Below, one piece after another: positions 14,120 through 19,742 of a DNA stretch of 34,464 nt. This DNA comes from Candidatus Gastranaerophilales bacterium. GTDB taxonomy: Bacteria > Cyanobacteriota > Vampirovibrionia > Gastranaerophilales > Gastranaerophilaceae. The translations under genes were made by a program, and so were the position numbers. How positions within the stretch are numbered: the first letter of the stretch is position 1; every line of letters begins with the position of its first letter. The notes under the pieces are model-generated. The model saw nothing but the letters and a program-made list of their open reading frames with translations, was not told the origin of the DNA and ran no database searches. The DNA is taken from contig CANQRT010000002.1 in NCBI GenBank assembly GCA_947626325.1, forward strand, positions 1 to 34,464. The letters are read 5' to 3'.

Positions 14120-15112
14120 TGATTTGAATAGTCCTTTAAAAAATTTTCTGTCAAACGAAAAGAAAATTCTTTTATAAATCAAGACTATATTTGCCCTGTT
14201 TAATTTTTCCTTAAAATACTGCTCATTTTCTTTAATAAATTTAAACATTTGGCTTCTGATTTTTTTATTGTTTCTAAAATATTTATTTTGGGTATGTTCT
14301 TTAAAATATTTTTTATTTCCCATAATAGGATTAGCCAAAGAATAATTAGAATTGTGGCGTCTATAGGCAAATAAAACCTTTTCAATTACTGCACTTGAGC
14401 CGATTAAATGGCAGAAAGAAAAAATAAATTTATCTGCTGTTATTTTTAACTTTTTGGAGTTTTCAAGCAATAAAAGCATATCGCAGACAGATTTTCTCAT
14501 CATAGCAGATGAAGTCGGGCCCCAGTGCCAAGAGGCAAAACTATATTTGTCATTATCTAATACTTTTACACTTGTTTCCGTTGTATTGATTGAATTTGCG
14601 CTTCTATATTCGTTTAATTCTTCATACGATTTTAATTTGATTTCAAGGTTTTCATTTATTTTAACGGGGCTGTCAGGGGAGTTAATTGTGTGCAAAACAT
14701 TGTTTTTATCAATTTCAGCTTGAGCGCAAGTTGTAAGAGCAACAGGGGTTTTAAGATGAGTTTCCATGTGTATTGTGCAGTATTCGGGAAAAAGCATATC
14801 ATCGCCGTCTATTGCACATACAAATTGACCTGATGCAGACTTTAATCCTTTTAAAAATGATTGAAACTGCCCGATATTTGTTTCATTTTGAAGAAATTTA
14901 ATATCAAGGTCGGCATTTTGTGAAATAAAATCAATAATTTTTTCTTTTGTATTGTCTTTAGAGTTGTCATCAACAACGATTATTTCAAAGTTTTTATATG
15001 TTTGATTTTTAATGCTTTTCAAGCAATCACACACAAAATCTTCAAAATTGTGTGTGATTACAATAAAAGATACTTTAGGTAAATTTAAAAAATCTTCCAT
15101 TATTCTAAACAA
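14108..15112 (-). CDS. Glycosyltransferase family 2
   Basis: VSFIVITHNFEDFVCDCLKSIKNQTYKNFEIIVVDDNSKDNTKEKI, SGQFVCAIDGDDMLFPEYC. Confidence 0.87.
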   Translation of the reverse strand: MFRIMEDFLNLPKVSFIVITHNFEDFVCDCLKSIKNQTYKNFEIIVVDDNSKDNTKEKIIDFISQNADLDIKFLQNETNIGQFQSFLKGLKSASGQFVCAIDGDDMLFPEYCTIHMETHLKTPVALTTCAQAEIDKNNVLHTINSPDSPVKINENLEIKLKSYEELNEYRSANSINTTETSVKVLDNDKYSFASWHWGPTSSAMMRKSVCDMLLLLENSKKLKITADKFIFSFCHLIGSSAVIEKVLFAYRRHNSNYSLANPIMGNKKYFKEHTQNKYFRNNKKIRSQMFKFIKENEQYFKEKLNRANIVLIYKRIFFSFDRKFFKGLFKSLFI

Positions 15113-16586
15113 TAGCTTTTTCTATACGATATTTTACTTTATCTTTTCCTAAAACTTCAAGGATTACGCCCATATCGGCGCCGTGGGTTCTGCCAGTCAG
15201 GGCAGCTCTTACTGTCCACATTGTTTCTTTAGGTTTAATTCCAAAGTTTTCTTTAAAATATGCTCTGAAATCAGCCAATTGCTCGTGCAATTTTTCTTCG
15301 TTGTTAAAGTCATAACCGTCTAATTGAGAGTCAAAATATTTCAATATATTTTGAGCCTGCTCAGTTGTGATGTTCTTTTCCTTAACGCCATCTTCATACT
15401 CAACATCTTTGCCGAAGAAATATGCGACATCGTTTGTTAAATCGGATAATATTGTAATAGGTTCGCGGGTTGCTTCTATTATTTTTTCAAGCTGAGCTTC
15501 AGTTATTTCATTTAAGTCATATTTACTCAAATACGGCTTTGCCAACTGTGTAAGCTTTTTAATATCCATTTTCTTAATATATTGACCGTTCATCCAGTTT
15601 AATTTGTCATATTCAAATATTGAGTTAGAAGAAGAAACTTCGTTAATTCTGAAATCTTGTGCAATTTCATCCAGAGTTTTAATTTCCTGCCCGTCAGACG
15701 GAGCCCAGCCTAACAGAGCAACAAAGTTTAACAGTGCTTCTGTTAAATATCCTTTTTCAACGAACTCCGAAACCGCAGTTGCGCCGTGGCGTTTGGAAAG
15801 TTTGCTTCTGTCGGGTGCAAGTATCATGCCTAAATGTCCAAACCTTGGTACTTCAGCACCCAACGCTTCATATATTAATATTTGTTTAAACGTATTTGAA
15901 ATATGGTCTTCTCCCCTTATAATGTGGGATATTTTCATTAACATATCATCAATAACGACGGCAAAATTGTAAGTAGGAGTTCCGTTTGATTTCATAATTA
16001 CAAAGTCGCCGATTAAACTTGTATCTTGATGCAAGTCGCCTTTTACAAGGTCGTCAAAATGTATTATCGGTGAGTCATGGAATGCTTTTTGCGCTTTTGA
16101 TATTGAAAAGCGAATAGCGGGTTTTCTGCCCTCTGCTCTATATTTAGCCTTTTGTTCCTCTGTTAAATTTTCGCATTTTTTAGAGTAAACATAAGCGCGT
16201 TTAGCCTTTGTAGCTTCTTCTTTTTCGGCTTCAAGTTCTTCTGGAGTGCAGAAGCATTCATAAGCGAAACCTTTATCCAAAAGCATTTGAGCGTACTTAG
16301 GATAAATGTCAAATCTTTCTGATTGAGTATAAGGGCCGTAAGCTCCGCCAACATCTGGGCCCTCGTCCCAGTTCAAGCCCAGAGCTTTTAAGCTGTCAAA
16401 AATGTTATCTATATATGCCTGACTTGTTCTTTCAGCGTCCGTATCTTCAATTCTTAAAACATACTTTCCGCCGTTTTTCTTAGCGAATAAATAGTTAAAC
16501 AAGGCTGTTCTTGCCGTTCCTATATGCAGATTACCGCTTGGTGACGGTGCAATTCTGACTCTAATTTCGTCCATTTTTCTCTCCAT
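15105..16586 (-). CDS. gltX: Glutamyl-tRNA synthetase
   Basis: VRIAPSPSGNLHIGTARTALFNYLFAKKNGGKYVLRIEDTDAERT and DRSKLSKRHGATAVSEF (KMSKS). Confidence 0.95.
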   Translation of the reverse strand: MERKMDEIRVRIAPSPSGNLHIGTARTALFNYLFAKKNGGKYVLRIEDTDAERTSQAYIDNIFDSLKALGLNWDEGPDVGGAYGPYTQSERFDIYPKYAQMLLDKGFAYECFCTPEELEAEKEEATKAKRAYVYSKKCENLTEEQKAKYRAEGRKPAIRFSISKAQKAFHDSPIIHFDDLVKGDLHQDTSLIGDFVIMKSNGTPTYNFAVVIDDMLMKISHIIRGEDHISNTFKQILIYEALGAEVPRFGHLGMILAPDRSKLSKRHGATAVSEFVEKGYLTEALLNFVALLGWAPSDGQEIKTLDEIAQDFRINEVSSSNSIFEYDKLNWMNGQYIKKMDIKKLTQLAKPYLSKYDLNEITEAQLEKIIEATREPITILSDLTNDVAYFFGKDVEYEDGVKEKNITTEQAQNILKYFDSQLDGYDFNNEEKLHEQLADFRAYFKENFGIKPKETMWTVRAALTGRTHGADMGVILEVLGKDKVKYRIEKAIV

Positions 16587-16677
16587 TTATCCTGTTATAA
16601 TTTAATTTTATTACAAAAAAATTAAAAAATAAAAACTATTCAAAACAAATAAAACAAATAATATAAACAAAATAAAG

Positions 16678-16855
16678 AAAACAAATAATATAAAAATTGC
16701 GTCCTGTCGCTGCGTATAGATAACTTCTAAACTCGGCTCGAGCTGCGGAACTCGCCTCACTTTGTGAGGCTCAAACAGTCCTCGCTTTGACACTGCCTCG
16801 CAAAGAAGTTTAACTATACTCCGCAATGGACTTTAATTTTTATATTATTTGTTTT
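16678..16855. repeat. Long imperfect palindrome A (about 178 bp)
   Basis: Perfect 21-bp terminal arms: AAAACAAATAATATAAAAATT (16678-16698) / AATTTTTATATTATTTGTTTT (16835-16855); inner pairing gtatagataacttct (16714-16728) / agaagtttaactatac (16804-16819); apex hairpin GCCTCAC-ttt-GTGAGGC (16754-16770). Confidence 0.85.
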
Positions 16856-16868
16856 TTAAAGTTCTAAC

Positions 16869-17023
16869 AAATCAAAAAAATAAAATCCTCTGCTCGGTAT
16901 TTGTTTCTATATTGCTAAACTCTGCCAAAGGCTCCGCTAAAATACGCTCCGCCTTGACGTTGCAGAGTTAAGCAATAAAAACGAAACAGAATACAGGCTT
17001 TCGGATTTTATTTTTTTTGATTT
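16869..17023. repeat. Long imperfect palindrome B (about 155 bp)
   Basis: Arms AAATCAAAAAAATAAAATCC (16869-16888) / GGATTTTATTTTTTTTGATTT (17003-17023), one A/T length difference; inner pairing attgctaaactctgc (16911-16925) / gcagagttaagcaat (16962-16976). Confidence 0.85.
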
Positions 17024-17102
17024 ATTTATAATTCTTACAGTAAAGATAGAAACGCAGTATCGGTTTTCAAACTTACTATCTTTATTGGAGTTTATTTTAT
17101 AT

Positions 17103-17134
17103 AAAAAAAAGCCCCTTATTCGGGGGCTTTTTTT
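17103..17134. terminator. Rho-independent terminator (serves AT2 on the minus strand; bidirectional in form)
   Basis: AAAAAAAAGCCCCTTATTCGGGGGCTTTTTTT directly after the AT2 stop. Confidence 0.85.
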
Positions 17135-17150
17135 AAAGTTGGAAATATCA

Positions 17151-19742
17151 TTATTTCTTAGCTATATATTTTTTCTCGCCAGTTGAGTTAGCGTGTTTAG
17201 GTTCAGCTTTACCCAAAGTCCATCTTAAACCAGCTTGGAACCCAACACCGCTTCTACCGCCAGCAGTAAAGAAGGTCTGGAAGAAACCAGTTAATCTTTC
17301 ACCCCAAGTTTTTCTGATACCAAAACCATATTTAACAAATGGTTTAACACTTAACTCAGGTAGTGTTGCATCAGAAGCATTAAATTCTGTTTTATCTAAA
17401 ACATTCCAAACAACACTAACACCAGCATAAGGCTGCCAGCCGTTATTTAAGTTTCCTATAAATTTCAAACCAGGTTCAAAAGCGATAGCGTGTAAAGGAT
17501 CACCATTAACTCTTATTCCAGATGAGGTTGTATAATCAAAAGTATTAACAAAAGAATAAGACATCATATAGCTTGGCTGGATAATAAATCTACCCTCAGC
17601 TAATTCCCAGTTATAACCAGTTTTAGCAGCGATACCAGACATTAATAAAGAAAAATCATCATTACCATATCTAGTATCAGCGTTAGCGATATTAGAACCA
17701 ACGTTAGCTGTAATACCAGCGAAGTAGTTATCTTTATAAGCCATACCGACTAAACCAAGAGTAGCGCCGTTTTGATAAATACCAATACCGTCATAAGCCT
17801 GGTGAGAACCGTTGTAACCCAAGTATGCACCAAACATACCGTCCCAACCGTGACCTAACTCCATAAGTTCACTTTCAGCGCCGAAGAAAGAGCCCCAAGC
17901 GACATTAGAAACTTTAGGCCCGTGATTAAGTTTAACATTTTCGAAAGTTGCATAAGGTCTAAACCAAGCAGAAGTGTTGTCGTAAGGAGTATTAGTCGGA
18001 TCAAAGACTAAGTTAGAGTCAGAAGCTGCGTATTTATTTCTATTTTTTAAAGCTTGACGTTGAGCCTTAGTCATTAACATATACATATCCATGTTGCGGA
18101 ATGCTTCATCGTAGGAATTTAACTGAGTTAAATAACCGCCGATTTGAGCAGCGATAGGAGCAGCCATAACAGCGGGGTTAAAATCATGGTAGCTGTTACC
18201 ACTTGGAGCAATTGATATTCCGTTAGAATCACTAGTTGCGGTAAACCACCTTAAAGGTGATAATACATCTTTAGAAATCCCTTCTTTAATACTTAAATCG
18301 TAGTTAACAGCGTCAGTTCCGTTAAATCCCAAAGCAGATTTAAGTTGTTTTTTAGTATAATAATGGCTTTGACTGTTCAGCGTATCAGGAATAATATTAA
18401 AGTCTTCTAAAGTTACTTGAATACCCGAAGGATTTGGACTCAATGATGCGCTGTTACCGTTTTTAAACACATCTGTTTGACCAGTTGCCATACTTAAATC
18501 AGAAGCAAGTAATGAACCGTTTGTTAAAGTAGTATGATTGCTTAAATCTTCAAATTTTCCATTAGCAGCATCCAAGCAAGAATTTTCTCCTACTGTAAAA
18601 TTATATGTTTCACCATAAGTAGTTCCTTGTCCGAGGTGAAGTTTACCGCCATTTTCCATTTTAATTGTTCCGTCAATCTTACCCTCGTTGTTAACGGTTG
18701 TTTTTTCACCTTTAATGGTTACTTCACTACCTTTATCACCTAAAGTACCTGTAGAATTAACAACAACGTTACCTTGAGTTTCTTCATTTCCGCCAATTGT
18801 ACCATTTTTTATTGTACCTGATGAATTAACAACCAAGTCGCCTGTAACTTCGCCCTCATCATTTCCAGTGTTAGTTAATTCTTGTTTTTGTAAATCTATA
18901 ACACCGCTATTATTAATTGTTGAGTTATCAAGGTCAATGCCGCCTGTAATATTACCAAAGTTATTAACTGTTGTATTACTTCCCTCTATGGATATGCTAG
19001 GTTCTTCATTAACACCGATAGTACCACCTTGGTTGTTAGTAATCACACCGCCTGTTGAATTGATTTCAGATTCTATTTTACCGCTGTTAACAACATTTCC
19101 GCCTTGGTTAAAGAGAGAACCGCTGCCGCCATCACCGCCTTTAATTGTTGCGTTAGCTTCGTTATAAATAGTACTGCCCTCTCCATTAACAACCGTACCA
19201 GAAATTTCACCCTTTGCTTCGTTATAAATAGTACCGCCGTTTTGGTTTTGGAGTCCTTTTTCTGCCCCCTCAGGTTCAATTCCGCTGTTTGTAATTTTAC
19301 CTGAGTTATGGATAACACCGCCGTCATTAAAAAGATTTCCTTTTATTTCACCTTTACTTTCACTTTCTCCACCATTAGAACCGTTATTTATAGTACCTTT
19401 GTTGGTAAACTCACCTTGTTCATTTGTTATTTTACCTTCATTATTGATGGTTCCGCCTTCTTCGTTTTTAATATAACCGTTTGTTTCGTTAGTGATTTCT
19501 CCGCCCTCTTTAACATTGAGAGTTCCGCCGTCTTTTACGTTATATCCCCCGTTATCTTTGTTTGTGGTTTTTCCTGATACATCGGTTACGCCTCCAACAT
19601 TTATAGGACCGCTGTTTGTGGTATCTCCGCCCATACTAAATCCCGCATTTGCAGGTAAAATTGAACTGTATTGAAATGCCATGCCTAAAAGCAATACTGC
19701 TATTAACACTTTTCTCTTCTTCATCTTTAATTCCTCTTTCAC
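17151..19742 (-). CDS. Autotransporter-like outer-membrane protein AT2 (likely start MKKRKV at about 19724)
   Basis: Signal peptide KKRKVLIAVLLLGMAFQYSSILPANA; Gly/Asn/Thr-rich repeat passenger (GGTINNEGKITNEQGEFTNKGTINN); C-terminal barrel PYAGVSVVWNVLDK...KPFVKYGFGIRKTWGERLTGFFQTFF..GLRWTLG. Confidence 0.88.
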   Translation of the reverse strand: MKEELKMKKRKVLIAVLLLGMAFQYSSILPANAGFSMGGDTTNSGPINVGGVTDVSGKTTNKDNGGYNVKDGGTLNVKEGGEITNETNGYIKNEEGGTINNEGKITNEQGEFTNKGTINNGSNGGESESKGEIKGNLFNDGGVIHNSGKITNSGIEPEGAEKGLQNQNGGTIYNEAKGEISGTVVNGEGSTIYNEANATIKGGDGGSGSLFNQGGNVVNSGKIESEINSTGGVITNNQGGTIGVNEEPSISIEGSNTTVNNFGNITGGIDLDNSTINNSGVIDLQKQELTNTGNDEGEVTGDLVVNSSGTIKNGTIGGNEETQGNVVVNSTGTLGDKGSEVTIKGEKTTVNNEGKIDGTIKMENGGKLHLGQGTTYGETYNFTVGENSCLDAANGKFEDLSNHTTLTNGSLLASDLSMATGQTDVFKNGNSASLSPNPSGIQVTLEDFNIIPDTLNSQSHYYTKKQLKSALGFNGTDAVNYDLSIKEGISKDVLSPLRWFTATSDSNGISIAPSGNSYHDFNPAVMAAPIAAQIGGYLTQLNSYDEAFRNMDMYMLMTKAQRQALKNRNKYAASDSNLVFDPTNTPYDNTSAWFRPYATFENVKLNHGPKVSNVAWGSFFGAESELMELGHGWDGMFGAYLGYNGSHQAYDGIGIYQNGATLGLVGMAYKDNYFAGITANVGSNIANADTRYGNDDFSLLMSGIAAKTGYNWELAEGRFIIQPSYMMSYSFVNTFDYTTSSGIRVNGDPLHAIAFEPGLKFIGNLNNGWQPYAGVSVVWNVLDKTEFNASDATLPELSVKPFVKYGFGIRKTWGERLTGFFQTFFTAGGRSGVGFQAGLRWTLGKAEPKHANSTGEKKYIAKK
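18695..19625 (-). repeat. Low-complexity T/I-x-N-x-G-x-I repeats of the AT2 passenger
   Basis: Repeated GGTIYNEAKGEISGTVVNGEGSTIYNEANATIKGG, VNNFGNITGG, INNSGVIDL, VNNEGKIDGTI. Confidence 0.75.

Follow-up and report, generated by a model that had tools for sequence, protein, structure and literature searches.

Small dispersed palindromes of bacterial genomes usually do not extend beyond one clade, or else RAYT transposases or parent insertion sequences account for them. The ERIC, YPAL and Rickettsia palindromic elements, for example, are each bound to a single clade. Integron attC sites are imperfect palindromes in which one strand is the folded, recognised form; the foot of the attC site is conserved (R′/R″ boxes RYYYAAC/GTTRRRY) and the top is variable. 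The palindromic units of REP and REPIN sequences tagged by GTAG or CGTC are 20-40 bp in length and display an unpaired tetranucleotide at the foot, and the CGTC repeats have no dedicated transposase (PMC3733652, PMC3116915). ERIC/IRU (127 bp), YPAL/RU-2 (~168 bp) and the Rickettsia palindromic elements are imperfect palindromes found intergenically (PMC2229807).

Two long palindromes, termed A and B, are found in the window (the whole 34,464-nucleotide stretch of DNA analysed) between gltX (15105-16586) and the autotransporter gene AT2 (17151-19742). Both genes are on the minus strand, so the gap is downstream of AT2 and upstream of gltX. Palindrome A (16678-16855, plus strand) is 178 bp in length. 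Its AT arms (16678-16698 and 16835-16855) match perfectly over 21 bp. No longer perfect inverted repeat occurs in the window at a range of up to 260 bp, and five local shuffles gave maxima of 12-14 bp. The apex of A (16742-16785, plus strand) consists of GCTGCGGAACTC (16742-16753), a small hairpin (16754-16770) formed by GCCTCAC (16754-16760), TTT and GTGAGGC (16764-16770), and TCAAACAGTCCTCGC (16771-16785). Palindrome B (16869-17023, plus strand; 155 bp) follows after a 13 bp spacer (16856-16868). It represents a second dispersed family, without the A apex, and its arms are slightly imperfect, with perfect blocks of 15 bp and 12 bp in a shifted register. When folded as RNA, A has an energy of −62.6 kcal/mol versus −32.9 ± 3.9 for dinucleotide shuffles (z −7.65); the corresponding values for B are −56.1 versus −25.4 (z −8.76).

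A preliminary description of this DNA had placed A and B at these coordinates and had recognised the perfect terminal arms, the apex hairpin and the short separation of the two units, all of which stand. Its statement that A and B fill the gltX-AT2 gap does not. A further hairpin (17038-17087, plus strand) and the intrinsic terminator of AT2 (17104-17134), which is outside the palindromes, are located beyond B, and an AT-rich tract (16614-16677, plus strand) is to the left of A. The further hairpin is a stub of a third palindrome family, C, since C is present at full length in the equivalent position downstream of an AT2 paralogue on contig C57 of the same genome (locus L009); full-length C is also found in this position in another genome of the set (G028, L053). 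The AT-rich tract contains relatives of the A arm sequence with a 9-bp period, which are probably slippage copies of the arm. On contig C94 (L010, 1046-1190), a longer (TTTTATTTG)n array adjoins a copy of A and is apparently a slippage expansion of arm sequence. Locus L009 (C57, 7500-9038) displays the AT2 paralogue, with DNA 77% identical over ~890 bp, and then the same C-B-A cluster; the paralogue and its palindromes may have been duplicated together.

The census of copies is based on sequence searches of genomes, many of which are draft and fragmentary assemblies. The window's own genome (G000) is a 1.59-Mb assembly of 198 contigs that is 88% complete. It carries further copies of A on contigs C57, C94, C143, C60 and C48 and further copies of B on C57, C7 and C20, some with 98-100% identity across the alignment. 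Several contigs break off inside a palindrome copy; repeats break contigs in fragmentary assemblies. Matches were detected in 23 of the 35 genomes of the genus (order Gastranaerophilales), with up to 25 per genome, and here A and B are often side by side or in arrays. A sequence profile, with the loci fetched, yielded 91 unique full-length A-like copies. As for other families of the order, weak matches in G035, G038 and G041 resemble chance AT-rich similarity and the match in G048 is real.

A, B and C are dispersed, vary from species to species at matching gene junctions, and occur singly or as A/B/C mosaics. At one locus, two convergent genes are separated by 0-12 bp in many relatives (TAA/TTACTC), and in the window's genome (C20) ~208 bp of B is present exactly between the two convergent stop codons. 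At the corresponding locus of G003 (L201), the convergent genes enclose C-type palindromes, three in tandem, whose apices contain TTCG. In G017 (C6, L198), two small open reading frames without assigned function adjoin an inverted copy of B in the gap at this type of locus. At locus L011, A is found between a terminator and the next gene in seven species and is absent in G005, G001 and G011. The tRNA-Lys locus also varies: one type of A is present in G034 and G026, another in G017, G015, G028 and G000, and a third in G023; B is found in G012 and G020, in opposite orientations; G027 has nothing, and G010 displays a slippage deletion between TATTT repeats.

The palindromes also invert in place and vanish by deletion. 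In the orthologous gltX-AT2 gap of G017 the core of B is inverted relative to the window with the flanks in place, and downstream of the AT paralogue on C57 it is the core of A that is inverted. A 445-bp composite of two palindromes is found at two places in G026 with unrelated flanks. These composites offer the clearest junctions, and no target duplication is evident at them; as AT-rich flanks blur the insertion ends, this absence is weak evidence. Flanks are exchanged between species at composite palindromes (L352 and L353, at C2:131300 and 203300 of G026, versus L358 on C3 of G034); this suggests that copies recombined and thereby inverted a segment of the chromosome.

Copies differ in arm sequence, and within each copy the arms stay complementary. 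At a single L011 site, for instance, one species has arms of sequence CATAAGAAATAAAAATT and another has GGAATAAAAATAAATAAAAATT, and in both cases the partner arm matches. Over 84 copies, an arm scores 11.6 against its own partner versus 3.6 against partners of other copies, and the own partner beats every dissimilar copy in 45 of the 84. The A alignment shows changes on both sides at 21 of its 28 consensus pairs. Formation of the arms from target sequence was considered at the tRNA-Lys locus and rejected; arms of different copies align mutually and look gradually diverged. Together with the mechanism proposed below, A, B and the remnant of C are best explained as copies of small (~150-210 bp) non-autonomous mobile palindromes, a reading that on balance is probable.

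The apex of A, in which GCTGCGGAACTC and TCAAACAGTCCTCGC flank the small hairpin at the tip of long palindromes, is found far outside the genus. A scan with the pattern GCGGAACTC-N(4,34)-TCAAACAGTCC, which is exact and under-samples variants, detected the apex in at least 120 contig stretches from ~12 phyla; chance matches are estimated at ~15 in the whole collection. Carriers listed are Pseudomonadota, Patescibacteria, Bacillota, Actinomycetota, Bacteroidota, Myxococcota, Chloroflexota, Campylobacterota, Desulfobacterota, Omnitrophota, Nitrospirota and Gastranaerophilales (Cyanobacteriota in the wide sense). The matches lie at the tip of long palindromes, whose arms contain 44.7 paired bases on average. 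Conservation extends beyond the pattern itself: among the matches listed, CT precedes it in 116 of 127 and TCG follows it in 117 of 127. Copy number varies from 1 to 63 per genome in 42 carriers, and a reversed control pattern gave zero matches. The highest count, 63 exact copies in a 5.9-Mb genome, is in Myxococcota bacterium isolate Prado146 (G349), where many copies have a non-palindromic apex loop. Small genomes of Patescibacteria hold 11-22 copies, and the cultured species Dechloromonas hankyongensis carries a single exact one. Copies in the genus show covarying bases around the apex (e.g. GCTGCGG/TCCTCGC, GCCCCGT/ACGGGGC and GCTCGCA/TGCTCGC), and AACT and the TCAAACA stretch are almost fixed.

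Exact matches are patchy: within the phylum, only 3 of the 292 genomes have any, which disfavours a universal host factor as the recogniser of the apex. Searches with the core of A gave no match among 5,426 genomes of E. coli, nor in plasmid or phage collections, with plasmids displaying only partial, low-scoring matches that have another apex; viral contigs gave 7 matches among 2.9 million. The hosts sampled may be part of the reason for the lack of plasmid matches. Among the matches listed, 38 of 127 apex copies are inside an automatic open reading frame. The minus strand of apex copies with a GCTTCGC tip can be translated as ..LFERSEF.. and is a possible source of spurious hypothetical proteins. 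With Rfam 15 covariance models, all matches in 16500-17200 were below the gathering score, and a description of the apex family was not found in the literature searched, although other papers may have one.

The strand that folds can be read from the mismatches. These were counted in the arms only and in 76 clusters, so that relatives count once. On the motif strand, A.C exceeds G.T in 47 clusters versus 12 and C.T exceeds G.A in 44 versus 7, with a combined signal of 57 to 9 (p 1e-9). An excess of A.C and C.T on the motif strand represents tolerated G.T and G.A on the opposite strand, and we therefore infer that the opposite strand (CTGTTTGA..GAGTT), which for A in the window is the minus strand, folds and carries the function. 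The bottom strand is the more stable in 99 (DNA parameters) or 100 (RNA parameters) of 114, in agreement with this, although most of the figure comes from the shared apex and it is therefore not independent. Inside the genus the strand signal consists mostly of inherited G.A mismatches. Over the 25 outer consensus pairs of 91 genus copies there are 2083 Watson-Crick, 26 G.T and 46 A.C cells, so that the motif strand shows no preference for G.U. GC skew, as a test for the replication strand, gave a borderline result (p 0.05) that is left out of the argument.

A specific folded strand that tolerates G.U and G.A is also what would be expected if the repeats act as RNA, with CTGTTTGA..GAGTT transcribed, the long hairpin bound by a conserved RNA-binding protein and the spread secondary. 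Tandem GA pairs flank the apical stem, like protein-binding internal loops, and copies are mostly beside gene ends (convergent in 26 settings, same-direction in 35 and divergent in 5). In the same-direction settings, however, it is the motif strand that is sense in 22 of 35, versus 13 of 35 for the folded strand. G.U exceeds A.C 1.8-fold, versus 15 to 4 in a small control of terminator-like hairpins that differ in other mismatches too. In addition, there is no Rfam match, and reverse transcriptase is absent from the window's genome and from many carriers. As there is no read-through bias for the folded strand and the G.U ratio is below that of the terminator control, the evidence favours a single-stranded DNA hairpin over RNA, and action as RNA is considered unlikely.

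Several candidate drivers were examined and rejected. Reverse transcriptase was detected in 13 of 27 carriers and not in the window's genome, Y2 transposase in 2 of 27 carriers, and integron integrase (TIGR02249) over the cut-off in 2 of 27 carriers and in none of 11 genus genomes. An autonomous copy adjoining the elements was sought in a Pfam tally of 141 neighbouring proteins, which represent housekeeping genes with no recurrent mobile-element gene. A 1.3-kb stretch between inverted copies of A in G029 holds a prepilin-like gene and not a transposase, and no parent transposon of the palindromes was found. That no driver gene emerged agrees with an explanation in which there is no dedicated enzyme, and spread and change come solely from replication template switching and host hairpin repair; in-place inversion, concerted arms, tandem duplication and slippage deletion all fit. 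Such an origin leaves unexplained the invariance of the apical internal loop across phyla and the patchiness of exact matches within the phylum (the 3 genomes of 292 noted above), and we regard it as decidedly unlikely.

It might also be supposed that RAYT (Y1) transposases move the palindromes, which would then be long versions of REP/REPIN. A Y1 gene is present in 28 of the 42 carriers of other phyla; it is missing from the remaining 14, which include genomes with 11 and 14 copies. No match to Y1 (PF01797) was found in the 88% complete genome of the window, and within the genus Y1 is commoner in members without copies (8 of 12 genomes) than in those with copies (2 of 23), so that Y1/RAYT was rejected as the driver. 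The intergenic position, the paired and mosaic units, the hairpins and the lack of coding capacity are all REP-like, but there is no GTAG foot and the length is 150-210 bp, not 20-40. This explanation is very improbable and already stands contradicted, unless many carriers lost Y1 after the spread. Scarcely credible is the view that these are terminators or mRNA stabilisers, structured ends of transcription that are retained for gene-end function and do not move, a view in keeping with the few divergent settings (5, versus 26 convergent and 35 same-direction) and with the repeated filling of the same junctions, but not with the separate intrinsic terminators that adjoin the palindromes (17104-17134 and at L011), the orthologous junctions without copies or the absence of a T-run from the structure.

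For A, B and C as mobile palindromes, the following mechanism is proposed. The palindrome would extrude as a single-stranded DNA hairpin, formed in the window by the minus strand. A putative trans-acting protein, widespread but patchy, would recognise the apical internal loop CTGTTTGA / GAGTT around the small GC hairpin and would move the hairpin into intergenic DNA without evident target duplication. After insertion, template switching between the arms could keep them matched, resulting in concerted arm evolution, and could also flip the core and make tandem copies or deletions. A wider hypothesis is put forward more tentatively and falls somewhat short of probable: the repeats may constitute a superfamily that crosses phyla, with an invariant apical loop (AACTC / TCAAACAG) and free but matched arms, whose movement as a single-stranded DNA hairpin, specific to one strand, would depend on a putative protein other than Y1, Y2, integron integrase or reverse transcriptase.

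The preliminary description had offered selection on structure as a general reading, and mobile palindromic units, large structured RNAs or attachment sites as options. That structure is selected or maintained is supported by the compensatory changes in 21 of 28 A consensus pairs. The mobile option gains from the dispersed copies, the empty sites and the composite unit found twice. The RNA option is weakened, G.U not being favoured over A.C on the motif strand and orientation showing no bias towards transcribing the functional strand; the attachment-site option finds no support, integron integrase being without a match in this genome and ten genus members searched. The remark that no named family fits is borne out against Rfam and the literature searched. 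Further copies in the own genome and in the genus, covariation and well-matched arms were found, the opposite of a picture of missing copies, no covariation and eroded arms.

Of interest is an apex of 27 nucleotides (12 + 15 bases around a small hairpin) that is conserved in ~12 phyla while all else changes, with the usual drivers missing from many carriers. The apex element may be the sign of a mode of DNA spread that has so far gone unrecognised. A dedicated protein, if there is one, would represent a hairpin-moving enzyme of a new type, findable by phylogenetic profiling; even without such a protein, the palindromes provide a natural experiment in hairpin flipping, slipping and arm matching. 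Some of the short spurious proteins and assembly breaks seen in bacterial genomes may also be due to the family.

Comparison with known systems places the palindromes close to several of them. Like MITEs, they are short, non-coding, multi-copy and mobile and have terminal inverted repeats; unlike MITEs moved by transposases, their arm termini are copy-specific, with no parent transposon found. At the clearest junctions no target duplication is evident, although AT-rich flanks blur the ends there. They resemble attC sites in that one strand of an imperfect palindrome is folded, but the apex is conserved and the foot variable, and integron integrase was not found in 11 genus genomes; as the feet vary, constant attC R boxes are unlikely. 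ERIC, YPAL and the Rickettsia elements share the size class, the imperfect palindrome, the intergenic position and the lack of a long coding gene, and YPAL also shows empty and filled sites (PMC2229807). The comparison with ERIC was by genome matches: the core and apex of A went unmatched in the 5,426 genomes of E. coli, a species in which ERIC is present. YPAL and the Rickettsia elements were compared by their described features alone (PMC2229807), with no clear target duplication seen here. With REPs and REPINs, the palindromes share an extragenic position, presence in several phyla, convergent or same-direction gaps, and inverted pairs and mosaics (PMC3733652, PMC3116915). They differ from REPs in length (150-210 bp; A 178 bp, B 155 bp and ~208 bp for the filled versus empty C20 site) and in being conserved at the apex, with a foot free to vary, arms that pair to the ends and no unpaired GTAG or CGTC; from GTAG REPs they differ further in having no RAYT in the window's genome. 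On the best reading, the palindrome is mobile but non-autonomous and behaves like REP/REPIN elements without being one of them.
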